A DNA stretch of 64,000 nt from NCBI GenBank assembly GCA_021826965.1, contig JAKAYA010000006.1, positions 1 to 64,000 of the forward strand. Direction: 5' to 3'. The notes below the pieces were generated by a model. That model was not told the origin of the DNA and ran no database searches. It worked only from the letters and a program-made list of their open reading frames with translations. The DNA comes from Nitrospirota bacterium. Its GTDB lineage: Bacteria > Nitrospirota > Leptospirillia > Leptospirillales > Leptospirillaceae. The number at the start of each line of letters is the position of its first letter. Positions within the stretch are counted from its first letter, which is position 1. Positions 8,625-56,000 of the stretch are shown here, piece after piece. The position numbers and the translations under genes were made by a program.

Positions 8625-8774
8625 GTCTTTCCTGCCAGCGGCGGACGGATGTCCTTGGGTGAGGTCCTCTTGTTCCAGCGGGATGAGGAAATGCCTTTTC
8701 CTGATTCTTGCAGAAGTCGGCCGCCAGGGAAAGGGCAAGGCCCCGGTCGGGGACTTTCGGAGAGGAAGGTCCGG

Positions 8775-9743
8775 ATGAAGTTCCGATGGATTCTCTTCGT
8801 GACGGCGATGAGCTTTTTCCTTCCGTCCGTCTGTCCGTCCGTTTCCGGGGCGACGGAGCGTTCGGATGCGATCCGTCTCGCGAAAAAAGCCGAAAACGGG
8901 GACGCTGCCGCCCGGGGGACCCTTGCCGGAATGGCCCGTGCCGGCGATGTCTGGGCGGAAATCGTTTACGGGGACCTGATTGCCCGAGGGAAGGGGACGA
9001 AGCCCGATCCTGCCCGCGCACTCGTCTGGTACAGGAAGGCGGCCGAAGCCGGAAATCCGGTGGCCGAAACCAACATGGGGGCGGCGTATTATTTCGGTCA
9101 GGGTGTTTCCGACGATTATGTCGAAGCGGCAGGCTGGTTCCGGAAAGCCGCCCGGCAGAGGTTTCCGGCCGCCGAAAACTGGATGGGCTCGCTTCGCGCC
9201 GCGGGCCTGGGCGTCCGGCGGGATCCCTCCCGGGCTTTTTTCTGGTATGAAAAGGCGGCCCGCCACGGTGAACCAGGGGGCATGACGAACCTCGGGGAAG
9301 CCTACATGGAAGGGGTCGGGACGCCGCGCCTTCCGGAAAAAGGCGTCTTCTGGCTCCGGAAAGCCGCCCGTCTCGGCGACGCGGAAGCGGAGGCCATGCT
9401 GGGATCGGCCTACAAATACGGGCAGGGGGTTCCCCGGAGTTTCTCCCGGGCGGTCGACTGGTTCCGGAAAGGTGCGCGCGGAGGGGATGCCATGGCCGCT
9501 TACGGGCTCGGGATCTGTTATGCCCGGGGACAAGGCGTTTCCTCCGACCCCGTGCGGGGATACGCCTGGCTGACTGTCGCGCAGGCCATGTCCCGGACCG
9601 GTTCTCCGACGGCCGGCATCATCGCCCGGGAACGGGGATACCTGAAACGTCGCATGACTCCCGAGGACCTGTCCAGGGCGGAAGGTCTCGCGGGCGATCT
9701 GCTCCGGCGCTTTTCCCTAAAAAGCGAGCGTCTTGCCGGATGA
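8775..9743 (+). CDS. Secreted Sel1-repeat (TPR-like) protein
   Basis: The 322-residue protein begins with a signal peptide (basic MKFR, hydrophobic ILFVTAMSFFLP, cleavage probably after VSGA). At least six Sel1-type repeats of about 36 residues follow, seen as ALVWYRKAAEAGNPVAE, AAGWFRKAARQ, AFFWYEKAARHG, GVFWLRKAARLGD and AVDWFRKGARGGD, each followed by A..NLG or LGS-type turns. Such repeats form a solenoid for protein-protein contacts in the periplasm or envelope. No enzymatic domain is seen. AGAGGAAGG lies upstream of ATG 8775. The partner is unknown. Confidence 0.85.
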   Translation: MKFRWILFVTAMSFFLPSVCPSVSGATERSDAIRLAKKAENGDAAARGTLAGMARAGDVWAEIVYGDLIARGKGTKPDPARALVWYRKAAEAGNPVAETNMGAAYYFGQGVSDDYVEAAGWFRKAARQRFPAAENWMGSLRAAGLGVRRDPSRAFFWYEKAARHGEPGGMTNLGEAYMEGVGTPRLPEKGVFWLRKAARLGDAEAEAMLGSAYKYGQGVPRSFSRAVDWFRKGARGGDAMAAYGLGICYARGQGVSSDPVRGYAWLTVAQAMSRTGSPTAGIIARERGYLKRRMTPEDLSRAEGLAGDLLRRFSLKSERLAG

Positions 9744-9813
9744 ATCCTTGTTGGGCGAAAGGTATCCGGAAATGGTCGTACAAGATCAGAAAAGCGGAGC
9801 AGGAGGCTGAGAG

Positions 9814-12450
9814 ATGGATGACGCGGCGGCTCTGAACCGGAATGCCGGAACCGGCCCTCCTTCCTTCGACGACATCGGGGAGTTCGCCCGAAGAGTCTTC
9901 GACACCTGCGAGGCCGGCGTCGGCGTCGTCGACGCGGCGTCCGGACGGTATGTGTTCGCCAATACCCGGTGGTGCGAGATGCTGGGGTACGACCGGGAGG
10001 AACTGATTCGCCTGTCGGTCCGGGATGTGACCCATCCGGACGACTGGGAGGCGACGAAGTCCTGTGTGAAGGAAGCCAGTGAAGGTTCCCGGGAAAAGTA
10101 CTTCATCGAAAAACGCTTCGTCCGAAAGGACGGAAGCGTTTTCTGGGGATTCCTTCTCGTCCGGGTCTTCCGCGATCCGGTGACCGGCGACCGGCTTCTG
10201 AACGGAATCGTGCTGGACTTCGACGAGAAAAAGCGGATCGAGTTCCAGCTTCTGAACGAACGGAACATCACCCGCGCCCTGTCGGAGATCAACGCGCTCA
10301 TTTTGAAGCGACCGTCTCCGGAGGAGCTCTACCGGGAATCCTGCCGGATCGCGGTGGAGTTCGGAGGGTTCATGGCCTCCTGGGTGGCGGTTGTCGACCC
10401 TGACACGCTCGACACCCACAAGTCGGGTCTTTACATCAAGGATCCCCGTGTCCAGGAAGGAATCGACCGGGTCATCATTTCGGTGGATCCGGAAAAACCC
10501 AACGGTCGCGGATCGGTGGGGCAAGCCTATCGAACCGGAAAACCCGTTGTCCTGAACGATTACCTGGAAAATCCTTCCACGCTCCCCTGGCAAAAGGAGG
10601 CGCGGATGTTCGGGGTCGCCTCCGCCGCGGCTTTTCCCATCCGCAAAGGCCAGGACATTGTCGCCCTTCTCGTCATCCTGTCGAACCGGGCCAATTTTTT
10701 CGAAACGGAAAGCGTCGGGTTGCTGTCCCGGATCGCCGAGGCCATGTCCTACGCGCTCGACGATTTCGAACGGGGGCAGGATCTGTTTTTGACCTCTCTC
10801 GTCGTCGACGCCGTTCCGGAAGGGATCTTCATCACCGACACCCGGGGCCGGATCACCCGGGTGAACGAGGCGTTCTGCCGATTGTCCGGATTTTCCTTCG
10901 CGGATCTTCTGGGCCAGGAAGCCGACATGTTGACGGAGGGTCTCGAGAAGGGGGTTCTCTGCTCCTCGATCCGGGAGTCCGTCGAGCAGCGCGGTACCGT
11001 CGAGGGGATTTTCGAGCTCGTTCGAAAGGACAGATCGCCTTACATGGTCGAAGCCACCATCACGCTGGTGGAAGAGCCGGGGCGAGAAAGCCGCCACGTC
11101 GTCCTGCTTCTGAAGGACGTGACGGCCAAAATGGAGCGGGAAAAACAGATCTGGCGTCTCGCCAATATCGACGACCTGACGGGGCTCCTGAACCGCACCG
11201 CCCTGATCGAACGACTGGCAACGGAAATGGAGAAGTCCCGCCGGAAAGAGGAGGCACTGGCCCTCTTCTTTCTGGACTTCGACGATTTCAAGGGGATCAA
11301 CGACACGCTGGGACACAGTGCCGGCGATTGGTTTCTCCGGGTGATCGGCAATCGTCTGTCGAGTTCCTTCCGGCCCACGGACATCGTGGCCCGTCTGGGC
11401 GGAGACGAATTCGTCGTGGTGGTCGCGCTGGAATCGGACGAACACATCCTGGCCTTCGCCCAGAAAATCCTGGACATTCTGGGGGCTCCCGTTTCCATCC
11501 AGTCCCAGACCGTCCAGACGTCGGTTTCCGTCGGCATCGCGACCTTTCCCCGGGACGCCTCTTCCGTCGAGGACCTTCTCCGGAAAGCGGACATCGCCAT
11601 GTACCAGGCCAAGGGGAAGGGCAAGAACACCTGGCAGTTCTTTAACCTCGCGATGGAAGAACGGATCCGTGTGCGGTTCGAGCAGGAACAGATGCTCAAG
11701 ACCGGACTGCAGGAAGGGGCCTTCTTCCTGCACTTCCAGCCCCAGGTCGACGTGTTCCGCAACCGCCTGGTCGGCGTCGAGGCTCTGGCGCGATGGCCCG
11801 GTCCTGTGGGCGGGACCATCGGGCCTTCGACCTTCATCCCTCTGGCGGAAGAGACAGGGACGATCCTCGCGTTCGGCGAGTGGGTCCTCCAGGAGGCCTT
11901 CCGGGTCATTCAGGTCTGGTCCGAGGCCGGTCGGCCCCGCATCCGGATGGGGGTCAACGTCTCGTCCCGGCAGTTCTGGAGCCCGACCTTCTGGACCTTT
12001 CTCCGGGAGATTCTCTCCCGCCATTCGGAGTTGACCCGCTGGCTCACGTTCGAGCTGACGGAAACCGTTCTCATGCGCGATCCGGACATGGCCGGCGAAC
12101 AGCTGGCCTGGCTCAAGGATCTGGGAATCCGGATCGCGATCGACGATTTCGGGACGGGATATTCCTCCCTGACGTATCTGTCCCGGTTTCCCGTGGACGA
12201 GATCAAGGTTTCCCAGGATTTCGTCATCCGGATGGCGAAGAGTCCCCGGGACCTGAAGCTCGTCAAGACCATCATCCAGATGGGGAAGAGCCTTCGTCTG
12301 AACCTGGTGGGGGAAGGAGCGGAAACGGAAGAAGAGGTCCGCATGCTCGAAGCCCTCGGCTGCCATGTCATCCAGGGGTTCGCCCTCTCCCGCCCCTTGC
12401 CCATGGAGGAGGTTGAAGTTTACTGGGACCGGTTTCGGGAAGGGGTCTGA
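9814..12450 (+). CDS. PAS-GAF-PAS-GGDEF-EAL cyclic-di-GMP protein
   Basis: An 878-residue soluble signalling protein. The order is PAS (about 20-140), GAF (about 155-320), PAS (about 325-440), GGDEF (about 450-615) and EAL (about 630-875). The GGDEF motif is at 529-533 with a product-inhibition site RPTD five residues before it. The EAL motif is at 656-658 (VEALARW), and DDFGTGYSS begins at 777. Both cyclase and phosphodiesterase sites therefore look intact, so the net activity may be set by the sensors. There is no membrane segment, so the signal is cytoplasmic. A SixA-like phosphatase gene follows 32 bp downstream. Confidence 0.93.
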   Translation: MDDAAALNRNAGTGPPSFDDIGEFARRVFDTCEAGVGVVDAASGRYVFANTRWCEMLGYDREELIRLSVRDVTHPDDWEATKSCVKEASEGSREKYFIEKRFVRKDGSVFWGFLLVRVFRDPVTGDRLLNGIVLDFDEKKRIEFQLLNERNITRALSEINALILKRPSPEELYRESCRIAVEFGGFMASWVAVVDPDTLDTHKSGLYIKDPRVQEGIDRVIISVDPEKPNGRGSVGQAYRTGKPVVLNDYLENPSTLPWQKEARMFGVASAAAFPIRKGQDIVALLVILSNRANFFETESVGLLSRIAEAMSYALDDFERGQDLFLTSLVVDAVPEGIFITDTRGRITRVNEAFCRLSGFSFADLLGQEADMLTEGLEKGVLCSSIRESVEQRGTVEGIFELVRKDRSPYMVEATITLVEEPGRESRHVVLLLKDVTAKMEREKQIWRLANIDDLTGLLNRTALIERLATEMEKSRRKEEALALFFLDFDDFKGINDTLGHSAGDWFLRVIGNRLSSSFRPTDIVARLGGDEFVVVVALESDEHILAFAQKILDILGAPVSIQSQTVQTSVSVGIATFPRDASSVEDLLRKADIAMYQAKGKGKNTWQFFNLAMEERIRVRFEQEQMLKTGLQEGAFFLHFQPQVDVFRNRLVGVEALARWPGPVGGTIGPSTFIPLAEETGTILAFGEWVLQEAFRVIQVWSEAGRPRIRMGVNVSSRQFWSPTFWTFLREILSRHSELTRWLTFELTETVLMRDPDMAGEQLAWLKDLGIRIAIDDFGTGYSSLTYLSRFPVDEIKVSQDFVIRMAKSPRDLKLVKTIIQMGKSLRLNLVGEGAETEEEVRMLEALGCHVIQGFALSRPLPMEEVEVYWDRFREGV

Positions 12451-24117: not shown

Positions 24118-25263
24118 CTATCCCTTCCGGTCGGGAACCGGTTGCCTGAACATTGTCCAGAAGCGTTGCCGGACTGTCTTGTTGGACTTGCTTTCGTAAA
24201 GGGCCTGGTCGGCCAGTCGGAGGAGCATGTCGGGATTCTTGCTCCACTCCCGGGGAAAGAGGCAAACGCCCGCGCTCAGCTGGACCATGACCGATGCACC
24301 GTTTGCAAGCCGGATGGGCTGGCGGATGGCGATGCCGATTTTTTCGAGGATCGCCGCCAGGGCGTCTTCGTCCCGGATTCCTTCGAGGAGGAGGACGAAC
24401 TCGTCACCTCCGAGGCGCGCCAGAAAGTCGGACTGCCGGAGGCAATCCTTCAGCCGGGAGGTCGTTTCGAGAAGAACCTGGTCTCCCGCTTCGTGCCCAT
24501 GCGCGTCGTTGATCGGCTTGAATCCGTCGAGATCGAGCATGCAGACCGCCAGGGGGATCTGGTAACGCTCGGCCCTCTCGATGGCGCCTTCGAGGCTGTC
24601 TTCCAGGAGCCTCCGATTCGGAAGATGGGTCAGGGCGTCGTGAAAAGCGAGAATTTCCACTTCGTTCTTGATCTTTTCCAGTTCCTGTCGTTCCTGGTGG
24701 CGGTTCAGGGCCAGCCCCAGGGCGATGGCAAGCTCTTCCAGCGTGTTGATCAGTTCGGGGCTGAAATGCTGAAGCTCCCCGCTTTCGATCACGAGGACGG
24801 CGACAGGTTTGCCGCTTTTTTCCAGTTTGACCGGAAAGGCCATGACGCTTCGTACCTGTCCGTACATGGGGCGGATGTCCTCGACCTCCCGTGTCAGGTC
24901 CGACCGGCCGGGGTCCATCGGACCTTCTCTTTGTCCGGTCTGGAAAACGTTCCGGGCCACGACAGTCGGGCAGATCGCTCCGACGGGGGACGAACGTAAT
25001 CCGTCGCCGTTCTTTTCCCCGTCTGTCGGGGGCGCATCCACATCCCGGGCGGCTTCGATCAGGAACAGATCGTTTTGGACATCCTGAACGATGATGGTGG
25101 CCCCGAGGGCTTCCGTCTGCAAGACGATGTTGTCCACGAGCTTCTGGTACATTTCCCGGGGATTGTCCAGATGAAGAAGATCCCGTTGGCTCTGGAGAAT
25201 GACGGTCTGATACTGAAGCAACCGCCGCAACACCCCCACTTCATCGTCTCTGCCTGACTGCAT
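24118..25263 (-). CDS. GAF-GGDEF diguanylate cyclase
   Basis: A 381-residue soluble protein. Residues about 40-190 form a GAF-like sensor (KLVDNIVLQTEALGATIIVQD, then VMAFPVKLEKSGKPVAVLVIES, FSPELINTLEELA). A short coiled linker leads to a GGDEF domain at about 215-375. The GGDEF motif is at 285-289 with the inhibition site RQSD five residues before it. FHDALTHLPNRR and DLDGFKPINDAHGHEAGD are standard. It is predicted to make c-di-GMP in response to a cytoplasmic ligand or redox signal. The next gene downstream in the same direction is the desaturase, about 165 bp away. Confidence 0.92.
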   Translation of the reverse strand: MQSGRDDEVGVLRRLLQYQTVILQSQRDLLHLDNPREMYQKLVDNIVLQTEALGATIIVQDVQNDLFLIEAARDVDAPPTDGEKNGDGLRSSPVGAICPTVVARNVFQTGQREGPMDPGRSDLTREVEDIRPMYGQVRSVMAFPVKLEKSGKPVAVLVIESGELQHFSPELINTLEELAIALGLALNRHQERQELEKIKNEVEILAFHDALTHLPNRRLLEDSLEGAIERAERYQIPLAVCMLDLDGFKPINDAHGHEAGDQVLLETTSRLKDCLRQSDFLARLGGDEFVLLLEGIRDEDALAAILEKIGIAIRQPIRLANGASVMVQLSAGVCLFPREWSKNPDMLLRLADQALYESKSNKTVRQRFWTMFRQPVPDRKG

Positions 25264-25592: not shown

Positions 25593-28130
25593 TTACCGGT
25601 TCCCTTCCTCGAGGATGTCCGATCGTCGATCGGGCGGGTGTCCGTCCAGGACGGTGCGGTTTCGTCCGGAGTGTTTTGCAAGGTAGAGCGCTCTGTCGGC
25701 TCGTGTGTACAGAGCATTCCAGGAGGAATCCTGCGGTTTCGGAAGGGCGCAGCCGATGCTCACCGTCAGGGGTCTGTCCGGGATGTCGGGCAGCGAAGCG
25801 GAACAGAACGCCCGGTTGATCCGTTCCCCAAGCCTCTGCAGATCTTTGGGCTCCAGCTTCCCTCCGCACAGGATTGCGAACTCTTCCCCTCCGACCCGGA
25901 AAACCCGGTCGACATCGGGGCGGCAGTTCCCTTTCAGGAGGGATGCGACATGCTGCAAAACCCGGTCTCCGGCATCGTGGCCGAACGTGTCGTTGATGCT
26001 CTTGAACCGGTCGACATCGATCAGGAGAAGTCCGAGAGTAGGTTGTCCGTCTTCCATGGACCCGAACGCGTCTTTCATGCAACGGGAGAAGTGGCGGCGG
26101 TTGTAGAGACGTGTCAGGGGATCGGTGATCGATTCGAGGAGGAGCTTCCGGTTGGTTTTTTTCAGTCGGAGTTCTGTCTTTTCCCTCTCCCGTTCCGCTC
26201 GGGTCCGGTTCAGCTCCGACTGGACTTTCAGAGACAGAAGTTCGACGAGTTCGACGACATGGTGTCGGTGGGAAAGTCCGGCCCACGGGGTTTCAAAAAA
26301 AATGGCGATATGTCCGATCTGGTTTTGGGCGTCGTCGAAGAGGGGGACTCCAAGGAACGACTCGAAGCGGGTTCCTCGCGCGCTTTCGAAAAGGCGGTAA
26401 ACTTCCTGGTTCACCCGGACCGTGGAGCCGGTTCGAAGGGACGACCAGTCCTTCGTCTTTTCTTCGCCGGCGTAGACGAGTTCGCAGGGGGTGCCCGGAA
26501 CCCGGAACGACCAGCCGCTTTTTTCTTCGTTTCCCCGGAGGGATGCGATCACTTCGACTTCCTCGTCGTCGTCGGGATTCCGGGAGGCGATGAAAACGAA
26601 ATCGGCTTTGAAATGGTGGACAAGGGTCCGGATCGTCGCGCGGAAGAAAGCCTCCCCCGTCAGACCGGACGTCTCCCGGATCATCTGTTTCAGAACGGTA
26701 TGGGGATCGAACGGAATCGGACCGTCCGGTTCGACCGGACGGGGGGTGTGATGCCTGGAGAGGACCGGTGGCGAAAAGCCCGAGTGCAGACGGTCTTCCA
26801 GCGGACCTCCGGAGGATACGGGCGGAGAGATCAGACCGCCCTGGGCGTAGTCGCAACCGTATTCTCCGAGTCGCGCGAAGGCATCTTCCGACTCGACGCC
26901 TTCCGCGACGACCGACATGCCGAGGTTGTGGGCGAGTCCGATCAGGGAGCGAACGAGGGCGGCGTCCCGGGTATCGGTCGTCAACCGGGCGATGAAGGAC
27001 TCGTTGAGCCGGATTCCATTGACAGGGGAGTGCGCAAGAGACCAAAGGGAGGTCTTTTCGATCCCGAAATCGCCGATCGTCAGGGAAACACCCATCCGGG
27101 AAAGGGACTCAAGATGGGATGCCTGTCGACGGGATTCGCTTGAGAGCGCGCGTTCCGGAATTTCGAGGGCCAGACGGTCCGGGCGGGTGCGGGTTTTTCG
27201 GAGAATGTCCCGGATCATCTCCGGAAGTTCCGGATGGTTCAGGATGCGGGAGGACAGCCGGACGCTCACGGATCCGCTGCCATCGGGAAAGAGTTCCGGC
27301 CGGCACGTCCGAAGGGCTTCGTGAAGGATCCGGTGCGTCAGAGGCGTGATCAGGCTGGATTGTTCGGCGGCCGGCAGGAACCTGTCATGCGTCAACAGTC
27401 CGAGAGAGGGATGGTTCCATGCCGCAAAGACTTCGACCCCGGAGATTTTCCCTTTTTGCAGGTCGATCCGGGGTTGGTAGACCAGGGAAATCTCTTCGTT
27501 CTCGAGCGCGCGTTCGAGGTCGGCCAGAAGCGCAGTCTCCACGATGCCGGTGGAGTCCGGAACAAAAAGAGCGTCCGATCCGGTCTCCTTTGAGCGGTGA
27601 AGGCCGACGCGCGCACTTTGAAAAAGCCGGTCGGCCGTGTCGCCATCTTCCGGAAAAATCGCCACGGCGGTCGAGGCCTTCAAATGCCGGACGGTATGCC
27701 CCGCTTCAAAGGGACGCTCGAAACAGGAACGAAGTGTCCCGGTGAAGCGATCGACGTCTTCCCGGTTGACGGGTAGCCAAAGGCCGAACTCGTTCTCGCC
27801 CGTCCGGCCAACCAGTTCTCTTCCGGACAGAACGGAGGCGATCCGTTTTTCCGCTTCCGCCAGGATCCGGTCTCCGGCATCTTTTCCCAGATTCTCGTTC
27901 GCGCCCCGGAAAGAGTCGAGTTCGAGGAGAACAAGCGCTGCGCCTGTTTCAGGGTTCCCTTTTTTGAGGTCCTTTCGGAGATTGCGGAGGAAAAGGGAGA
28001 GATCGGAGAAACCGGTCGGGGGATCCGGTCCCGATTTCGGGACGCTTTCGCCGGCCGCTTCCGATCTGTCGGCCCGGGTCTTTCGGGAAGCTGGCCCGTG
28101 CCGGGATTCTTTTTTCGGGGGGACTTTCAC
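25593..28130 (-). CDS. Degenerate GGDEF/EAL + GAF + active-type GGDEF protein
   Basis: An 845-residue soluble protein with unusual order. Residues about 40-200 form a GGDEF fold whose motif is GENEF at 111-115. Residues about 205-455 form an EAL fold in which EAL is EVF (233-235) and the DDFG motif is GDFG (from 353). A GAF domain follows at about 495-655. The C-terminal GGDEF domain (about 680-835) has an intact GGEEF at 747-751, DVDRFKSINDTFGHDAGD, but no RxxD inhibition site (PDVD instead). The N-terminal pair is therefore probably a nucleotide-binding sensor, while the C-terminal domain is the cyclase. The frame is uninterrupted and the start ATG 28130 opens directly into a charged N-terminal tail. 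Confidence 0.88.
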   Translation of the reverse strand: MKVPPKKESRHGPASRKTRADRSEAAGESVPKSGPDPPTGFSDLSLFLRNLRKDLKKGNPETGAALVLLELDSFRGANENLGKDAGDRILAEAEKRIASVLSGRELVGRTGENEFGLWLPVNREDVDRFTGTLRSCFERPFEAGHTVRHLKASTAVAIFPEDGDTADRLFQSARVGLHRSKETGSDALFVPDSTGIVETALLADLERALENEEISLVYQPRIDLQKGKISGVEVFAAWNHPSLGLLTHDRFLPAAEQSSLITPLTHRILHEALRTCRPELFPDGSGSVSVRLSSRILNHPELPEMIRDILRKTRTRPDRLALEIPERALSSESRRQASHLESLSRMGVSLTIGDFGIEKTSLWSLAHSPVNGIRLNESFIARLTTDTRDAALVRSLIGLAHNLGMSVVAEGVESEDAFARLGEYGCDYAQGGLISPPVSSGGPLEDRLHSGFSPPVLSRHHTPRPVEPDGPIPFDPHTVLKQMIRETSGLTGEAFFRATIRTLVHHFKADFVFIASRNPDDDEEVEVIASLRGNEEKSGWSFRVPGTPCELVYAGEEKTKDWSSLRTGSTVRVNQEVYRLFESARGTRFESFLGVPLFDDAQNQIGHIAIFFETPWAGLSHRHHVVELVELLSLKVQSELNRTRAEREREKTELRLKKTNRKLLLESITDPLTRLYNRRHFSRCMKDAFGSMEDGQPTLGLLLIDVDRFKSINDTFGHDAGDRVLQHVASLLKGNCRPDVDRVFRVGGEEFAILCGGKLEPKDLQRLGERINRAFCSASLPDIPDRPLTVSIGCALPKPQDSSWNALYTRADRALYLAKHSGRNRTVLDGHPPDRRSDILEEGNR

Positions 28131-28617: not shown

Positions 28618-29442
28618 ATGAAGAGGATCCGGCTTATGATTTTCGGGATCGTTCTGGGATCGGTTCTGATGAATGGCTCATTGGCCTGGGCCCTGATTCC
28701 GGTGGTTCCGTTCACCCCGGAAGAATATCTCGATGTCGTCACGGGGCCGGACAATTGTGGCTTGTCGTGCCAGACGAACACGTCCTTGCTTGTTCCAAAT
28801 GCCAGCACGAATCTGTCGGTCACATCTTCCGCGCCTTCCGGCTCCGCTTCGATCGACCTGACGGCGGCGGGGTTGCCGGATCTGTCTGTCTTTGCAGGAA
28901 ACACGGCCGGGACATCGACGAACGCGACCGCCAGTTATATCAACACGATCCGTTTCGTCTATACCGGAGCGGGTCCGGCTCCCGCCACGCTTACATCTGC
29001 CATCGGATGGACAGTCGCTGCCACGATCCTGTCGCCGCCCGGCATGCCTTCCGGTGAAGTCGGGGGAGCGGCCAGCATCGCCATCAGTCTTTCTTCCTGT
29101 TCTTGTCCGGCCCGGTATGCGTCGGTCCAAATCGGCCAGACCGGATCCTACGCCCTCTCCAACCCGTTCACGATCCCCGACGGAGGATCGATCGCCTACG
29201 AAGCCGGACTTTCGGCGTATGTCTATGGTTCTTCGACCCTGACCGGTTCGTCCTCTCTGGATCCGGCCCTGTCCATCACTCTTCCTCCGGGGTGGACGGG
29301 GTATCCGGGAAGCGGTGGCATCCTTGGGGAACCGGCCGTGGCGGCGACGCCGGAGCCGTCTTCCCTGCTCCTTCTGCTTCCGTTTTTCGGGGGGTGGGCG
29401 ATGTGGACCTTGTCCGGCGGGTTCAGGCGATGGGGTTGGTGA
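28618..29442 (+). CDS. PEP-CTERM sorting-signal protein
   Basis: A 274-residue exported protein. It has an N-terminal signal peptide (MKRIRLMIFGIVLGSVLM..., cleavage probably near AWA) and a Ser/Thr/Ala-rich body with four clustered cysteines. The C-terminal tripartite signal is PEPSS, then a hydrophobic stretch LLLLLPFFGGWAMW, then basic FRRW. Such proteins are processed by an exosortase (EpsH/XrtA type) and are commonly tied to exopolysaccharide. No exosortase is in the window. The body has no recognised domain. The last 20 bases overlap the end of the convergent GGDEF gene. Confidence 0.85.
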   Translation: MKRIRLMIFGIVLGSVLMNGSLAWALIPVVPFTPEEYLDVVTGPDNCGLSCQTNTSLLVPNASTNLSVTSSAPSGSASIDLTAAGLPDLSVFAGNTAGTSTNATASYINTIRFVYTGAGPAPATLTSAIGWTVAATILSPPGMPSGEVGGAASIAISLSSCSCPARYASVQIGQTGSYALSNPFTIPDGGSIAYEAGLSAYVYGSSTLTGSSSLDPALSITLPPGWTGYPGSGGILGEPAVAATPEPSSLLLLLPFFGGWAMWTLSGGFRRWGW

Positions 29443-30607
29443 CGCAGATCTGGTTCTTGCCCTGGTTCTTGGCCTGATAGAGCGCGCTGTCGGCCAGTTC
29501 GAGCAGATCGTCCATCTTCTGGGCTCCATGCATGTCGGTGCCGGTCAGGCCGAAGCTTGCGGTGATCGTGAGCGAACCGGTTCCCACGAGGACCGGCATG
29601 CAAGCGATGTAGCTCCGGATCCGCTCGGCGACGAAACGGGCCTGCGCGATTTCGAGTGCCGGCATCACGATGATGAATTCATCTCCGCCGAACCGGCTGA
29701 AGAGATCGACTTTCCGGACCAGGGTCCGGACGCCGTGGGCGATCTTCCGCAGGACCTCGTCTCCCGCGTTGTGTCCGAACTTGTCGTTGACCGTCTTGAA
29801 GTCGTCCAGGTCGAAGATCAGAAGCGACAGGACCGGGTCCCGGAGGAAGCTCAGACGGTGCTGGAGTCCCCGGCGGTTCAGAACCCCGGTCAGCGGATCG
29901 ATATTCGCTTCCCGTGTGACCTTCCGGTTGTGCTTCTGGAGGGTTCCCATCCGGTTTTCCATCGTCTGGACCAGGTTCTGGATATGGTTCATCTGGGACT
30001 GGAGCTTGGCCGCTTCCCTGGACAGATTGGCCAGAGTCGAGGCGATGCCTTCGGGACGCGTCTCCGCTCTTCCTCCGGTGTCGGACGGGTTTTTCCGGGA
30101 CTCCGGAAGGTCTTCCGGTTCCGTCAGGCGGTGATTGAAGAGGGGCCTTTTCCGGCTTGTGGACGATTCGCGCGAAGGGTCGTGGGACAGGACGGTCGGG
30201 AGCGGAGGCTCCGGAAGAGGGGCCCTGGGAACCTTCCGGATTTCGTTCCGGGACAGCAGCATCCGCTCCAGAAGCGTCTCGATCTGTGGGTGGGTCTGAA
30301 GGGCAACCTGATCCGAGTCCAGGAGGTTCCGGATCGCGTTCAGGTCCCGGGCCAGATGGGGCTGATCCGAAGTTTCGGACAGGCACAGGGTCAGGTCCAG
30401 AAGCTTCCGGAAAAGGTCTTCCATGGACGGAAGGTCCTTTTCGTAGAAGAACCGGGTGAAGTTTTCCGGCGTCGGGGGCAGGGAGAGCTCGAGAAGCTTG
30501 AAGAGAGCGTTTTTGGCCCGGGTCTTGGGTTCTTCGACTGTCCTCATTTCGAAGGAATCCTCCGTCTGTCCGCGAAGTCGTCGTATCCAGTGTTCCGCCT
30601 GGTCCAT
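29423..30607 (-). CDS. GGDEF diguanylate cyclase with helical N-terminus
   Basis: A 394-residue soluble protein. The first 220 residues are mostly charged and helical, without a named sensor domain, and contain a Pro/Ser-rich linker around 130-185. A predicted coiled coil (LANLSREAAKLQSQMNHI) follows. The GGDEF domain occupies about 230-390 with the motif at 307-311 and an RKVD inhibition site five residues before. DPLTGVLNRRG and DLDDFKTVNDKFGHNAGD are standard. It probably makes c-di-GMP. It follows the small degenerate-GGDEF gene in the same direction with about 210 bp between. Confidence 0.9.
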   Translation of the reverse strand: MDQAEHWIRRLRGQTEDSFEMRTVEEPKTRAKNALFKLLELSLPPTPENFTRFFYEKDLPSMEDLFRKLLDLTLCLSETSDQPHLARDLNAIRNLLDSDQVALQTHPQIETLLERMLLSRNEIRKVPRAPLPEPPLPTVLSHDPSRESSTSRKRPLFNHRLTEPEDLPESRKNPSDTGGRAETRPEGIASTLANLSREAAKLQSQMNHIQNLVQTMENRMGTLQKHNRKVTREANIDPLTGVLNRRGLQHRLSFLRDPVLSLLIFDLDDFKTVNDKFGHNAGDEVLRKIAHGVRTLVRKVDLFSRFGGDEFIIVMPALEIAQARFVAERIRSYIACMPVLVGTGSLTITASFGLTGTDMHGAQKMDDLLELADSALYQAKNQGKNQICVTNPIA

Positions 30608-30817: not shown

Positions 30818-31447
30818 TCATGCGGATGCGTCTTCTGCGGCATTCGGAGAAGACAGACGCATGAAGACCTGTCCGCTGCTGTGCTCCCAGTGCCACCGGG
30901 TGTTTTTCGCCAGGGACACGTACTGGATCCCCTTGGAGACCCGGAACAGGATCGGATCCAGCTCTTCGTTCGGATTGACTTCGGTCAGGCTCACCTGAAA
31001 ATCCGCGCCGTCGATTTCGCCCCAGTCGCTGAAGGGTGTGGTTTCGACCGAATACAGGATCCGCTCCATCACGAGAATCGCGTGAGGCAGGTCGTTGGGC
31101 ACCAGAATGACAAAGAGGCCCGGCTCGATGACGGCGATGAGGTCTTCGCTCTTTTCCCGCGTGGCCGTACGGAGAAGCTTTCCGAATTTGGCCCAGAAAA
31201 TGCGCGCGTTGATGTCCTTTTTTCCTGTCAGGGAAGGGATGCCGTCCACCCGGACGATCCCGATCGTGCAGGGAAACTTCTGTCGGATTAGACGGGCCTG
31301 GGCCCGACGGAACTCTTCCGCGAAAAATCCGAGGTTGTAGAGCCCTGTCACTTCGTCGCGGACGGGATTCGGCGATTTCCCCGCAGATTCGCGGGTGTCT
31401 TTCAGGAGCGCTTCGATCTCTTCCTGTGAGAGGACGGAAAAGTTCAT
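30818..31447 (-). CDS. Degenerate GGDEF-like protein with FliM/FliN-type N-terminal motif
   Basis: A 209-residue protein. Residues 6-15, LSQEEIEALL, match the N-terminal peptide of flagellar switch proteins FliM and FliN (ILSQ.EIDALL), which in FliM binds CheY-P. From residue 30 on it follows the GGDEF fold: DEVTGLYNLGFF corresponds to D.LTGL.NRR, and TIGIVRVDGIP to the first metal-binding strand. However, the GGDEF position reads EPGLF and the RxxD site is absent, so it cannot be a normal cyclase. No membrane segment is present. ATG 31447 follows AAGGGAAATCC. The next minus-strand gene is an intact diguanylate cyclase. A role linking c-di-GMP and a motility or chemotaxis output is inference. 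Confidence 0.75.
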   Translation of the reverse strand: MNFSVLSQEEIEALLKDTRESAGKSPNPVRDEVTGLYNLGFFAEEFRRAQARLIRQKFPCTIGIVRVDGIPSLTGKKDINARIFWAKFGKLLRTATREKSEDLIAVIEPGLFVILVPNDLPHAILVMERILYSVETTPFSDWGEIDGADFQVSLTEVNPNEELDPILFRVSKGIQYVSLAKNTRWHWEHSSGQVFMRLSSPNAAEDASA

Positions 31448-37571: not shown

Positions 37572-38483
37572 ATGACTGTCAGAAAAGTGATTCTGATCGC
37601 CCTGCTTCCGGTGGCTCTTCTCTTGGGCCACCGTGCGACTGCCCGGGCGACGATTGTGGATTTTACCTTTACGGGTTCCTATGAGACATACACCATCCCG
37701 ACCACCGGGACCTACGACATCACCGCATGGGGTGCCCAAGGTGGACTCGGCGGTTTTCAAAATTTGGGCGGGGGCAAGGGGGCGGAAATCGGAGGAGCCT
37801 TTACGCTTACGGCGGGGGAGAATCTTCAGATCCTGACCGGCGAAGCCGGAGGACAAGACAATCCTTACTCCGGTGGAGGCGGGGGCGCCAGCTTTGTGGG
37901 GCTGGGGAGCTCTTATCAGAACGCAACAGCCCTGCTGGTCGCCGGCGGCGGTGGAGGCAGCTCCCTCACGGGTGGTGGCGAGGGCGTTCTCAGTCCTTCC
38001 GGGACAGGAGCCGGAGGTAGCGGCGGCAGCGGGTCTTACGGTGGTGGAGGCGGGGGCGGCTACACTGGAAATGGAGGCCCAGGAGGCACCTCCGGAGGAC
38101 TCGGAGGTCAGAGCTTTATCGGGGGAGGAAGCGGAGGAGAGGGGGATCTGACCAATATCGGAGGAATCGGCGGCGGAGGGGGTGGAACCTACTACGGCGG
38201 GGGGGGTGGAGGCGGCTATACCGGTGGAAACGGGGGAAATAGCCTTGGTGGAATTGGCGGTAGCGGAGGAAGTTCCTTTATCGACTTGGCTCTTGGATCC
38301 CAAACAGTCGGTGTTGCCGGGGAAAACAGCGGCAATGGCCTGATCACCCTCTCCTTTGCCTCCGCTCCGCCGGTTCTTTCGGGGACGCCGGAGCCGTCGA
38401 CAGGAATCTTGTTTGGGACGGGGGCGGGTCTTCTGGGACTCAGAGCCCTCAGAAGGCGCAAGGTTCGAATAACCGGGGCATAA
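37572..38483 (+). CDS. Glycine-rich PEP-CTERM surface protein
   Basis: A 303-residue exported protein. A signal peptide (MTVRKVILIALLPVALLLG, cleavage probably at ARA) is followed by a beta-type domain starting VDFTFTGSYETYTIPTTGTYDITAWGAQGG. This resembles the glycine-rich receptor-like folds seen in some surface proteins. Residues about 80-250 are dominated by GGGGGG/GGY/GGS runs. The C-terminus is TPEPST, a hydrophobic segment GILFGTGAGLLGL and basic RRRK: a PEP-CTERM sorting signal. It may form a flexible adhesive or matrix layer. AGGGGG precedes the ATG, and a strong terminator follows. Confidence 0.85.
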   Translation: MTVRKVILIALLPVALLLGHRATARATIVDFTFTGSYETYTIPTTGTYDITAWGAQGGLGGFQNLGGGKGAEIGGAFTLTAGENLQILTGEAGGQDNPYSGGGGGASFVGLGSSYQNATALLVAGGGGGSSLTGGGEGVLSPSGTGAGGSGGSGSYGGGGGGGYTGNGGPGGTSGGLGGQSFIGGGSGGEGDLTNIGGIGGGGGGTYYGGGGGGGYTGGNGGNSLGGIGGSGGSSFIDLALGSQTVGVAGENSGNGLITLSFASAPPVLSGTPEPSTGILFGTGAGLLGLRALRRRKVRITGA

Positions 38484-39244: not shown

Positions 39245-42200
39245 ATGGACCGCCTGAATCTGGACCGCCTGAACTCCTTCAAGCCGCCTTCTCCCCGAAT
39301 CTGGACGGCCCTGGCGATGGCCGTCCTCCCGATCCTGTTTCTCCTGGGATTGTCTTTTTTCCTTCTTCTGGAAAAGCGTCCGCGGATCCAGGCCGACATC
39401 GCCGGTCTTTCCAGGGTCGAATACGACGGAGATTCGATCGAGCGGAGCCTGATTGCCCTCGCCTTCTTCCCCCGCGGACGACAGCTCCCGCTCCGGGAAC
39501 TCCGGCGCGTCACCGGATACCTGACCCAGGTCCGGGCGGACGCTCTCGACATCCTGTCCCGTGAGGACCTTCTTCCCTTCGACGAGAAACAGACGGTCCG
39601 GGCACTTCCGGGTTTTTCCCTCGGGGCCCCGGAGCTTCCTCCGGAAGACGTCCTGTCCGTGGCCCTTGCGAAGATGTCCTTTTTCGAAAAAGACGTGGAC
39701 ACCCGGGAACTCCGTCTGACCCGTTCTCTCGAAGAGGTCGACCGGAGCCTCGAACGGACGGGGTCTTTTGTGGCGGCGGGATTCCTCCTTCTGGCGGGAT
39801 TCCTGTTCGCCGGCGCCCGGGAAATGCGTCGCTCCTTTTCTCATCTGGCCCTCTATGAAGCCCTCCAGCGTTCCGACAGCGCAATCGCGTTTCTCGATCC
39901 GGTGTCCGGCCATTTTCTCTTCGCGAACGAAGGGTTTCTGCGGCTCGCCCGAAGGGGTCCGGAAGATCTCGCCACTCTCGATCCGGCTTCCCTGTTTCCG
40001 GACCTCCGGGGAATGTTTCCGGGCTATGGAGAGAAGAACGCGTTGCCTCCGGAAGGTCTCGAAACCGGACTCGCGAGAAAAGACGGACAGCGTCTTCCGG
40101 TCGAGATGCGCATCGAGCGATCGACATTCCAGGGACGAGAAGTCCTGCTTCTCATGGTCTCGGACCTCTCCCGCAAAAAGACCCTGGAAGAGAAAAACCG
40201 GGAGATCCTCCGGCATCTCGAAACGATCGTCCAGAGCCTGGGGGACGGCCTTCTCGAATTCGATGTCGAAGGCCGGATCCTCTCCTCCAATCCGATGGCC
40301 CGGACTTTGTTGGGGTTTTCGGAGGAGGAACTCGCCAGGGAAAATTCCCTGCATGCCCTCGCGGGCGGGGACAGGGACGTCGTGGCGCACATCCGGATGC
40401 TTCTCCGGCAGGTGTGTTCGAAGGCGATCGTCCTGGAAGAGCACAGTCTGATCCTTCGGCGGCGGGACCGGTCGTCGATCGATGTGCAGGGCGTGTTTTC
40501 TCCGGAGACGGCTCCCGGGCCGGAAAGACCGTCCCGAGTGCTTTTCGCCTTCCGCGACGCCGGACCCCGGAAGGCGATGGAAGCGGACCTTCGGGCCAGC
40601 GAGACCCTGAACCGGGGAATCGTTGAAAATTCTCCGGACGGCATTTTCATTCTCGATCCCGACCGCCTGGTTCTCCTGGAAGGAAACGTCCGCCTGGCGG
40701 AGATGATCGGTCTTCCGCAGGCGTCTTCCCTGAAGGGGTTGCCCCTGTTGTCTTTTGCGACCCGGTCGGAAAAGGAAATTCGCCAGAATCTCGAACGGAT
40801 CCGCCTTCCGGGAGGGTGGGAGATCCTCGAAACCGCCTTCCGGCGTCCGGATGGACGGACGGTTCCGGTGTCGATCAACGCGGTCGGAATTCCCTTCAAG
40901 GGGAAGGACGCCGTTCTGGTAACCGTCCGGGACATTACCTTCCGCCGTCAGGTCGAGCAGTCGCATCTCCTGTTTCTGGAACTCGACCGGCTCATCCTCG
41001 AGGGAACGCCTCCCCACCGCCTGTACCAGAAGATCGCCGACCGGCTGGTCGCGATCTTTCCTTTTGTCCACGTCGCCCTGTTCCGCCGGGGTCCGGGAGG
41101 GGTGCCCGTCCTGGAAGCGGTGTCTTCCCGCGATCCGGTGATGCAGATGGAAATCGTGCGGGAAGGGAAGTCGTTCGGGGGGATGACCGTCCCGGGATTT
41201 CAGGAAGACCGGTTTTGCGAAGTCGGAGACCTGTCCCCGCCCTGGAGCACCTGGCGGGAGGAAGGCCGCTTCGAGACGCTCGCCTGCCTCCCGTTTCAGT
41301 TCTCGGCCGACAGCCCGACGGGATTGATGGAGATTTCCCTGGAAAAAGGGGAAACGATCAGCGACGCCCTGCATGCGCTCCTGGGGGATATCGCCGGTCG
41401 ACTTGCCTTCTTTGCGCGCCACCGGGACGAGCTGGCCCGCATCCGGCTTCTGGAGAAGGCGTTCGAAGTGACGCCGGCTCCGGCCTTCCTTGCGGATGCC
41501 GAAGGACGGATCGAGTGGGCGAATCCGGCGTATTTTGCGCTTGTCGGGGAAAAAGCCGACCGCGTTTTTCAAACGGTTCATCCCTATCTGGAAAAGCGCG
41601 AAAAAAATCGGGCGAACGCCGATATGTGGAGCCGGCTCCGGAAAGGGCAGTCCACAAGCGGGGAGTTCCTGCACCGGCGAAGGTCGGGCCCCGAGTTTCT
41701 GGCGGAGATCCGGGTTTCGCCGATCCTGGACGAGGACAAGAATCTGGTGAATCTGGTCGCCATCGAGACGGATATCACCCGAGAACGCCGGAAAGAAAAG
41801 GAGCTGCGCCTCCTGGCGTTCCACGATCCCCTGACGGGACTTCCGAACCGGGCTGCCCTCGAACGCGAATTCGAGGGGTACCTGGCGGTGGCCCGCCGTT
41901 ATCGCCGGACACTCGTCCTTCTGTTTTTCGATCTCGACGGGTTCAAGGAGGTCAACGATGCCCTGGGGCACGAAGCGGGAGATCAGTTGCTCGCGGAACT
42001 GGCCGCACGACTGGAATCGGTTCTTCGCGGAGGCGACCGGCTGTTCCGGTTGGGAGGCGACGAATTTCTGGTCATTCTGAACAACGCCGGGACACGGTCG
42101 GAAATCGAACAGTTTGCGCAGAGACTTTTGGAGGTGATCCACCAGCCGTTCGAACTTGCGGACCAGGAAGTCGGAATCGGGGCGAGCATCGGTATCGCCC

Positions 42201-42355
42201 TTTATCCGGAAGATGCGGCGAGCCAGCAGGATCTGTTGCGGATGGCCGACATGGCCATGTACCGCGCCAAGAACCGGGGAAAGAACCGGATCGAGTTCAC
42301 CAACGGGGAAGAGAGGCGAAACGACTTTTCTCCGCCGGAAAAGAAGGACGGATGA
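39245..42355 (+). CDS. Membrane sensor with PAS/GAF modules and GGDEF domain
   Basis: A 1036-residue diguanylate cyclase. Transmembrane helices at about 19-42 and 178-198 enclose a periplasmic region of about 135 residues with no named fold. Several PAS modules follow (about 205-315, 325-440, 450-575), then a GAF-like domain (about 585-740) and another PAS (about 745-865). The C-terminal GGDEF domain covers about 870-1020, with GGDEF at 937-941 and an RGGD inhibition site five residues before. DLDGFKEVNDALGHEAGD is standard. It is predicted to make c-di-GMP on combined periplasmic and cytoplasmic cues. No partner gene is in the same operon. Confidence 0.9.
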   Translation: MDRLNLDRLNSFKPPSPRIWTALAMAVLPILFLLGLSFFLLLEKRPRIQADIAGLSRVEYDGDSIERSLIALAFFPRGRQLPLRELRRVTGYLTQVRADALDILSREDLLPFDEKQTVRALPGFSLGAPELPPEDVLSVALAKMSFFEKDVDTRELRLTRSLEEVDRSLERTGSFVAAGFLLLAGFLFAGAREMRRSFSHLALYEALQRSDSAIAFLDPVSGHFLFANEGFLRLARRGPEDLATLDPASLFPDLRGMFPGYGEKNALPPEGLETGLARKDGQRLPVEMRIERSTFQGREVLLLMVSDLSRKKTLEEKNREILRHLETIVQSLGDGLLEFDVEGRILSSNPMARTLLGFSEEELARENSLHALAGGDRDVVAHIRMLLRQVCSKAIVLEEHSLILRRRDRSSIDVQGVFSPETAPGPERPSRVLFAFRDAGPRKAMEADLRASETLNRGIVENSPDGIFILDPDRLVLLEGNVRLAEMIGLPQASSLKGLPLLSFATRSEKEIRQNLERIRLPGGWEILETAFRRPDGRTVPVSINAVGIPFKGKDAVLVTVRDITFRRQVEQSHLLFLELDRLILEGTPPHRLYQKIADRLVAIFPFVHVALFRRGPGGVPVLEAVSSRDPVMQMEIVREGKSFGGMTVPGFQEDRFCEVGDLSPPWSTWREEGRFETLACLPFQFSADSPTGLMEISLEKGETISDALHALLGDIAGRLAFFARHRDELARIRLLEKAFEVTPAPAFLADAEGRIEWANPAYFALVGEKADRVFQTVHPYLEKREKNRANADMWSRLRKGQSTSGEFLHRRRSGPEFLAEIRVSPILDEDKNLVNLVAIETDITRERRKEKELRLLAFHDPLTGLPNRAALEREFEGYLAVARRYRRTLVLLFFDLDGFKEVNDALGHEAGDQLLAELAARLESVLRGGDRLFRLGGDEFLVILNNAGTRSEIEQFAQRLLEVIHQPFELADQEVGIGASIGIALYPEDAASQQDLLRMADMAMYRAKNRGKNRIEFTNGEERRNDFSPPEKKDG

Positions 42356-53057: not shown

Positions 53058-56000
53058 TTATAGACTCCTGGAGGGAGATGCCAACGGTTGTGGAGATGTT
53101 TCCGGTTCTCCCGGAAAACAGTTGGCAATCCGGGACGGAATTTTATGGGTGGCGAATGGCCTGTCCTTGAGAGACGTTTTTTGCTGATCCAGATCGTTCT
53201 GGTCCAGGATCGAAAGCTCGGAATCGATTTTCCGGATCTTTTCCCGGACTCTCTTCTGGGAGGCCAGGGCCAATTGGCCCTGTTTGTACTGGGACAGGAG
53301 AGCGTGCGCTCCTGTGAAGTGGAATCGAACATTGATGTGCGAGACGTGCAGGTTGACGAGAGCATCCTTCTCCAGAGGAAAATCCTGGGGAGTGAGACGG
53401 AGTGTCCCCTGGTAGAATTCTTCCAGAAAATGGGCAAATCCGTTCTGTCCGGGGTACCTCCGGGTCATCGTCAGATTTCCGATGTGGATATCAAGGGTGG
53501 TATTCCCGCAGACGAGAGGCGACCATGTCCAGGAACTGCGCACAGGGAGATTGAAATTGTTGAGAACATGGGTTTTCTGTGCGCACTCCAGGGTCAGCCT
53601 TGTCAGGTACGGACGGGCGAGTGTGTGCTCGTTGACATCGGTGGGAAGGGCCTTCAGTACCACTGGAAACTGTTTCTTGGCCATCTGGAGGATCTTTTTC
53701 GAATCGGTCTGGTCTTCTTTTTGAAGAGATTCACGCAGGGTGACAAGGTCAAGATGACGTTTCTTGCTTTCCAGCTCGGATTTTTTCATCGCCAGCTCCA
53801 GGGACCTCCGTCCCGCAATTGCCGTGTTGATGAACACGAGAAACTCGGGTGAGATGGCAATTCCGTAGCCATTCCTCCTGATCAGCCTGTATCCGTTGGC
53901 TCTTCTCGTGACGAACGGCTTCATTGTTTTGTCCATGAATGCGGGAATGGTCCCGCCGGATCCGAACAGGAAATGACCCAGCTCCTTCGATGTGAGCGAT
54001 GCCTGGGCGGGAGAAACGACACTGGCGATCCAGCGGTCATTGATTTCGCAAGCCGCTTCCCGATCAAGAAAATCGAGGGTGCTTCCGAACTGTCCCATGA
54101 CAAGGTTCCAGATGATGAGTTCCTTCGGATCATGATGAGAGATGAGCTCTTTTCGCATAGTGGAAAGGGCATCCGACATATCGACCAAAACAGGTCTCTT
54201 CTTCTGGAAACGGTGGTTGAAGGAAAAGAAGTCGGCAGTCAGTGCGAGCGCGTGCCCCCTTCCCTGAAGACCCTCTCCCACAGCCCCTGCCAGGTCTGTG
54301 GAAAATCGCGTATAGGCCTTGCTGGCTGCGATCATCGACACGAAATATTTTTGCCCCTGAGCTGCTCCCTGATGGGTGCCGGTGGTGCCCGACTCGTTTA
54401 AGATACTGGCGTATCCCTTGATGCGGGAGACGAATCCTCCCTGAGCCTGGGATTTTTCGATCCGGATGATTTTCCGGAGAAGATCCTGCCACCGTTCGTG
54501 ACGGCTGTCCTCGCTCGGGGGAAATTCGACCGCCAGCCGGTTCGCCAGAAGGACATAAGGGTTCCCGCTCGTGGGAAGGCTCTGGAAGAATCCTTTCCAC
54601 TGGATCGCGTCTGCTAGCGTGGATTCTCCTTGGGCAAAGTCCCGGACAAAGCGGAGCCATGCCGCCTCTTTCCGGATTCTGTACCAGGCCAGGAAGGATT
54701 TTTCATGGTCGGCAATGGGAAAGTTGGGTGGACTGGCCGACTGGACTTCGGAGAGAAAGTCGAAGATGCGTCTCATTCCGCCGTTCGTATAGGAGGCCGG
54801 AATGGTTCTGTCCGCATTCGGGCTGACCGTTCCTTTCCAGAAGGTGGCCAGAGTGACAGTAGGAAGATTCCGGGTGTCGACCCAGTCGACAAGCCAGTGA
54901 AAATCGGGAACAGTCTGCTCGACCTCAAGAAGAAGCGACTGGAGAAGATCCTGATTGTGGCCGATCAATTCCTTGGGAACCCAGGCGATGTAAGCCAGGT
55001 ACAGATCGGAAAAATGCCGGGCTTCCTGGGGGGAGATCGAAGGATCGATGGTGACAATGTCCTGGGTTCCGGGTTGTGGTTGGAGTTTCAGGTCGTCATA
55101 GCCCATTCCTTTGGTGCGATCCCGGATGAGGTTGATCCTTCGCACCAGAATCTCCGCGTAATCGGCCAGGTGGTTATGGGGATCGTCGTTCAGGAGCGAC
55201 CGGATTTTCGTCCGGAGGGATGCGTTCAATTCCGGAAGGATCGCTTTGTTGAACTGGTCGGTGAAGCGGCCCTTCATCCTGTCTTCGATCGCGATGACTT
55301 GTCCGGAGAATGCCAGCAGATGGAAGGAGAGCGACCGGTCCTTTCGAGACATCCAGTCGACAAGGCTCCGGTATCGCTCAAGATTTTCAAGGTTCTGGTG
55401 AAAATCTCCACCCAGCTGGACTTGGCTTGGTTGCCGATCTTCGAGAGTCCTGACTGTGCGATAGGTCACCAGGAAAGAGTAAGAAAAGTAAAGGCCTGCC
55501 ACGAGGTTGACCCCGTACCAGCTCACAAGAAGAATATTGGATGAAAAACGTCTCCATCGGGCCAACATCCCCAGTGGCGCATAAAGAGATCGGTCGGCCG
55601 GAAGGAGGTCGGTGAAGAATTCTTTCAGGAAAACGCCTGTCTGGGGGGGTGCGAATGGGGTGGCGGATCCCGTCAGGACCGTGCGCTCCCGATGGCCTTC
55701 CATTGCGGCGCTTTCCTCTTTGCCCAGACTTTTCTGTTCGGACTGGAGCGCGATCGAAGAGGTGGCGTCCAGAATTTCGACCTCCTGTTCGTCCCGCTCT
55801 CCTCCCGCATCTCCCAGCACCGAAGAAAATCGGGATCCCCGGATCGTTCCGCTGGAGAGAAAAAGGCCCCTGAAGGATGGGAGCTCAAGATAGGGGGACG
55901 GTTCGAACAGACCCCGGAGAAAAGTGGAAAGAAGGGGCTCCAGGGACTGGACCTCGAGGGGGAAGATCAGTCCGTCGGACGAATTGATTCCCAGATCGGC

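Follow-up and report, generated by a model that had tools for sequence, protein, structure and literature searches.

A small protein of 209 amino acids, encoded in the genome of an acid-mine bacterium of the Leptospirillum family, combines a FliM-like N-terminal peptide with a catalytically degenerate GGDEF domain, and its gene opens a conserved cassette of two genes, the second of which encodes a predicted active diguanylate cyclase. Each of these parts is known already, and what seems to be new is the combination of a FliM-type peptide with a GGDEF domain. The best explanation, to which a probability of roughly 45% is assigned, sees the protein as an enzymatically inactive GGDEF adaptor, which would capture CheY via its FliM mimic and relay to the partner cyclase. 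The window, namely the whole stretch of 64 kb that was analysed, sits in an assembly of 2.2 Mb and contains the following features:

30818..31447, minus strand: 209-aa protein with a FliM-like N-terminal peptide, a linker and a degenerate GGDEF domain (translation; orthologue; sub-threshold Pfam match, FimX GGDEF match and Foldseek).
31397..31447, minus strand: residues 1-17, MNFSVLSQEEIEALLKD, a FliM-type putative CheY-docking peptide (orthologue identity, FliM profile and scan of 198 genomes).
31361..31396, minus strand: residues 18-29, a variable linker with low pLDDT (orthologue comparison and AlphaFold2 model).
30851..31360, minus strand: residues 30-199, a catalytically degenerate GGDEF domain with a DEVTGLYN start (alignment with active GGDEF domains, AlphaFold2 and Foldseek).
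29423..30607, minus strand: partner gene, 394 aa, with an N-terminal LPPTPENF-type region, an intact GGDEF motif and an RxxD I-site (Pfam, TIGR00254 and syntenic copy).

Translation of the window from 31447 to 30818 on the minus strand gives 209 amino acids followed by a stop codon, arranged from the N- to the C-terminus as MNFSVLSQEEIEALLKD, the linker TRESAGKSPNPV, and the GGDEF domain beginning RDEVTGLYN. LSQEEIEALL is thereby placed exactly at residues 6-15 and EPGLF at residues 108-112, in agreement with a first-pass annotation of this DNA that had located the former near the N-terminus and the latter at the active site. A single orthologue was found, in a metagenome-assembled genome (MAG) of Leptospirillum sp., i.e., in another genus of the leptospirilli (L009:8001-8621, the same gene as L004/G004), and is 67% identical overall. 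A reading frame of 1237 amino acids (34531-30818) was ruled out as the gene, since the orthologue uses the same Met and has an in-frame stop shortly upstream. An identity as FliM or FliN was likewise rejected, as both the FliM middle domain and the SpoA C-terminal domain are missing: in a Pfam scan with E-values up to 10, GGDEF was the sole match, and neither these two domains nor a receiver domain was detected. A promoter and terminator scan returned nothing on the coding strand of the candidate.

The GGDEF-like nature of the body, which had also been proposed from the sequence, is supported by the Pfam match, by a solved relative and by the fold. The profile comparison stands as regards the identity of the match but not as regards its score, which at 15.6 bits falls under the cut-off of 23.8 (best E-value of the two orthologues, 0.006). 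The best solved sequence relative is the GGDEF domain of FimX (PDB search, E 3.7e-4). Structure prediction could have given a non-GGDEF fold; the AlphaFold2 model obtained from the two-sequence alignment, whose quality is moderate (pTM 0.60, mean pLDDT 61, pLDDT about 40 in the N-terminal block), shows the strand and helix order of a GGDEF domain, and the 50 matches listed by Foldseek are all GGDEF proteins, including SiaD, PleD, DgcR, and FimX (TMt 0.69 against the FimX GGDEF domain). Alignment with active GGDEF domains from the same window reveals that GGDEF is replaced by EPGLF, that the first Asp of the DxD motif is replaced by R66, and that the NDxxGHxxGD stretch is lost together with its N and D. 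Judged by these residues, the protein cannot act as a diguanylate cyclase by known mechanisms.

At the position of the I-site, the candidate has KxxD (residues 99-102) and the orthologue RxxD, as a c-di-GMP receptor might keep, and this bears on a second reading, in which the protein would be a CheY sink or motility brake that binds CheY-P via the FliM mimic in competition with the motor, under the control of c-di-GMP bound to the degenerate GGDEF domain and supplied by the cyclase, which would have no direct adaptor role. The same motif evidence can be claimed for this reading as for an adaptor, and the partner cyclase is predicted to be active; however, the I-site is not clean, with a Lys in the candidate and a local insertion of two residues relative to active GGDEF domains, and a sink or brake is considered unlikely, if still worth keeping in mind.

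The partner gene lies directly downstream (30607-29423), and its product of 394 amino acids scores 130 bits against Pfam GGDEF and 139.9 bits against TIGR00254; with an intact GGDEF motif and an RxxD I-site it is predicted to be an active diguanylate cyclase. The N-terminal region of the partner, EPKTRAKNALFKLLELSLPPTPENFTRFFYEKDLPSMEDLFRKLLD (residues 25-70), has no Pfam match and is conserved in the syntenic copy, and may represent a sensor or docking domain. Order and orientation of the two genes are the same at L009 (8001-8621, then 8774-9919), where the partner is 56% identical, and the gap between the genes is about 210 bp in the window and 150 bp at L009. Of 21 family genomes, the same two yielded both genes and the other 19 yielded neither; many of the 21 are incomplete, however (FliM was seen in 14), so that a gene not detected is not in every instance a gene absent, and shared ancestry of the two lineages may also contribute to the pattern. 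The other genes of the 16.6-kb L009 locus have no counterpart in the 64-kb window beyond the usual GGDEF cross-matches. A location near chemotaxis genes, which had been suggested as a check, was not found: no chemotaxis or flagellar genes were seen in the 64-kb window or at L009, and the conserved neighbour is instead the GGDEF protein with the intact active site.

The surroundings of the cassette show several further features. The window is unusually rich in GGDEF/EAL genes, with five besides the candidate (9814-12450, 24118-25263, 25593-28130, 29423-30607, and 39245-42355), and 26 GGDEF matches were counted genome-wide. Two secreted-looking proteins (28618-29442 and 37572-38483, plus strand) end in PEP-CTERM-like tails (TPEPSSLLLL... 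and TPEPSTGILFG...); the first has no Pfam match, and one of the two is strongly Gly-rich. An IcmF/TssM-like protein (Pfam IcmF-related_N) is encoded at 53058-56900 on the minus strand, and its neighbours at about 51.4-60 kb resemble type VI secretion components. In the Leptospirillum MAG, a frame that by inspection resembles the RuBisCO large subunit (L009:9985-11259) lies directly downstream of the cassette.

As a stand-alone peptide, the putative docking stretch of the candidate is written MNFSVLSQEEIEALLKDTRES. The FliM of the same genome starts with SILSQEEVNALLRG (its opening is also written ...SESILSQEEVNALLRGLSEG) and FliMs across the family read ILSQDEVNALLRG. The Leu of the motif is residue 6 in the candidate versus residue 5 in FliM, and the candidate departs from FliM at E12 (FliM [DN]) and at the KD following the motif (FliM [KR]G). 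Against a profile built from 39 distinct FliM N-termini of the phylum, the candidate scores 26.7 bits, which is below the range of true FliMs (34-49), yet none of 300,000 random N-termini reach this score, the best of them attaining 16.0 bits. The match to the FliM N-terminus originally noticed for residues 6-15 thus holds, and the resemblance exceeds chance: the peptide is clearly FliM-like yet unlike FliM in detail.

To place the motif in a wider context, a back-translated pattern of the LSQ[DE]E[IV] type was scanned against 198 whole genomes of the phylum, and it matched in 103 of them, as compared to zero for the reversed pattern. Inspection of 108 matches (loci L110-L217) identified 103 as FliM (96 called by script and seven more read as divergent FliM), the remaining five being two internal NusG-like sites, one frame closing straight after the motif, an unrelated protein with an internal match, and the orthologue of the candidate. 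Among the matches inspected from these genomes, a motif adjacent to the initial Met is carried by FliM and the family of the candidate only. A stricter earlier pattern, applied to 61 genomes, recovered four FliMs, both family members and a tyrosine-recombinase-like protein that has the motif at an internal site. A literature search with the bare string EIDALL returned unrelated text only.

Conservation of the N-terminal match was likewise confirmed in the one orthologue, in which residues 1-17 are identical (17/17) although 8 of the 17 codons differ silently, whereas only 3 of 12 residues are shared in the linker (residues 18-29) before conservation resumes with RDEVTGLYN at the start of the GGDEF domain. 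From this one comparison, with two members known, the island of constraint has the form expected of a short docking motif that is flexibly tethered. A homologue scan with the candidate protein over contigs of 84,980 species returned one locus only, which is the same gene as L004; a search with residues 1-48 against 396 phylum genomes gave no further strong match in which the peptide and the GGDEF start were combined; the weak matches inspected are FliM, and a plasmid search gave no match to the candidate. The N-terminus could instead be an ordinary capped amphipathic helix of the S-x-E-E type that packs on or dimerises the GGDEF domain, with a coincidental likeness to FliM, as similar helices occur inside unrelated proteins, e.g., NusG and tyrosine recombinase, and the modelled N-terminal helix extends to residue 23. 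These chance cases are, however, internal and never Met-adjacent, random N-termini fall short of the score of the candidate, and the variable linker speaks against a helix of fixed structure running on into the domain; a merely structural role is therefore held to be distinctly unlikely.

A plausible receptor for such a peptide is encoded in the same genome, which has FliM and a single-domain CheY of the E. coli type (L095:1477-1857); by inspection, the CheY gene adjoins a CheR-like gene. This CheY matches E. coli CheY with an E-value of 6e-46, and the matched set of PDB sequences includes the FliM-peptide complex 1F4V. In the bound state, residues 1-7 of the FliM peptide are extended and residues 8-15 are helical (PMC7012829), and phosphorylation of CheY raises the affinity for the peptide approximately 20-fold (PMC7355467). 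In Caulobacter crescentus, the FliM peptide ASERILNQDEIDSLLG binds the CheY-like, c-di-GMP-binding Cle proteins, and binding is abolished by an ID-to-WA change (PMC5677366); of this ID pair, the candidate retains the Ile (I11), and the Asp is changed to Glu (E12). Leptospirillum ferriphilum is reported to have complete flagellar and chemotaxis gene sets and a rich c-di-GMP gene set, and its motility transcripts are up on minerals (PMC5772234). Binding of the candidate peptide to CheY is considered likely, and CheY-P is probably the ligand form. Docking to another response-regulator receiver or another partner, with a likeness to FliM that arose by convergence on one and the same receiver surface, would fit the 17 receiver domains of the genome and the E12 and KD residues that differ from FliM, but is judged improbable given that, apart from the family of the candidate, only the CheY-binding FliM has the N-terminal motif in the scanned genomes and that an E. 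coli-type CheY is present.

The adaptor model starts from what is directly established, namely the motif, its selective constraint, the degenerate GGDEF body, the two-gene cassette and the presence of FliM and CheY genes. The N-terminal 17 residues would mimic the CheY-binding peptide of FliM, with an extended start, a short amphipathic helix and a flexible tether, and would capture the CheY of the cell, preferentially in its phosphorylated form. The dead GGDEF domain may then contact the product of the next gene, the diguanylate cyclase, at its GGDEF domain or its N-terminal region; in this way, either the chemotaxis state would tune a local c-di-GMP source, or the c-di-GMP state would tune the amount of CheY left for the motor. 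We infer the binding of CheY, its phospho-dependence, the contact with the partner (solely from co-occurrence) and the direction of signalling. The adaptor model is favoured because of the placement of the motif, the island of constraint, the exclusivity to FliM, the CheY and FliM of the genome, the dead GGDEF domain and the co-occurrence with the cyclase, and it is weakened because there are two members only, E12 and KD deviate, the score is below that of FliM, the structural model is moderate, chemotaxis neighbours are missing and co-transcription across the gaps of about 210 and 150 bp is no more than possible.

Several known systems share individual aspects with the candidate. Like the FliM N-terminal peptide (FliM_N; 1F4V), it has LSQ[DE]E[IV]xALL straight after the Met, a flexible linker behind it and a CheY in the genome, but it is without the FliM middle and SpoA/FliN domains and has a GGDEF fold as its body. 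FimX, a degenerate GGDEF protein from Pseudomonas aeruginosa (3hva), is the best solved-sequence match and a good fold match, and uses a dead GGDEF domain as a protein-interaction module, whereas the candidate has just 209 amino acids and lacks EAL and REC/PAS domains and a pilus context. In the network of CheY3, MxdA and PdgA-PdgB-SO4207 from Shewanella oneidensis, CheY touches diguanylate cyclases and a c-di-GMP effector, CheY3 contacting MxdA as well as diguanylate cyclases, and a chemotaxis regulator is thereby coupled to c-di-GMP output; in contrast to the candidate, no FliM-like peptide is described for the interface, and MxdA is encoded in the exopolysaccharide cluster mxdABCD (PMC7666153). 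The Cle proteins of Caulobacter (CleA/CleD) are also a physical junction of c-di-GMP, the CheY fold and the FliM peptide, but represent the mirror image: Cle is a CheY-like receiver with an Arg-rich c-di-GMP tail that binds FliM, while the candidate, which has no receiver domain by Pfam, is a c-di-GMP-type protein that itself carries the FliM-like peptide. Pairs of the SiaD/SiaC type similarly place a small regulator gene beside a diguanylate cyclase gene, but SiaC does not belong to the GGDEF proteins, and no FliM motif is present. Neither the family libraries nor the open-licence literature searched yielded a GGDEF domain with a FliM-type docking peptide, and to our knowledge there is no precedent for such a FliM mimic. 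The first impression that no characterised family has this build therefore holds within the families and open-licence literature searched, and CheY is known to dock to c-di-GMP proteins through different, still unmapped interfaces (PMC7666153).

Biofilm biology has yet to explain how chemotaxis output is coupled to c-di-GMP levels, and no mapped docking code for CheY on c-di-GMP proteins was found in the literature searched. A dead GGDEF protein that bears a FliM-like peptide and comes with its own cyclase offers a concrete candidate interface, namely a 17-residue peptide versus CheY. It further predicts that CheY-P acts on targets other than the motor, and that these can be recognised from their sequence. 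Tentatively, the FliM-mimic peptide grafted onto a dead GGDEF domain may serve to regulate a dedicated diguanylate cyclase in response to CheY-P, and the pair may form a portable two-gene cassette that links chemotaxis output directly, at the protein level, to c-di-GMP synthesis, or the reverse. For the leptospirilli, which drive ore leaching and acid mine drainage by swimming to mineral surfaces and forming biofilms, the candidate suggests a direct, so far undescribed link between the control of swimming and c-di-GMP signalling.
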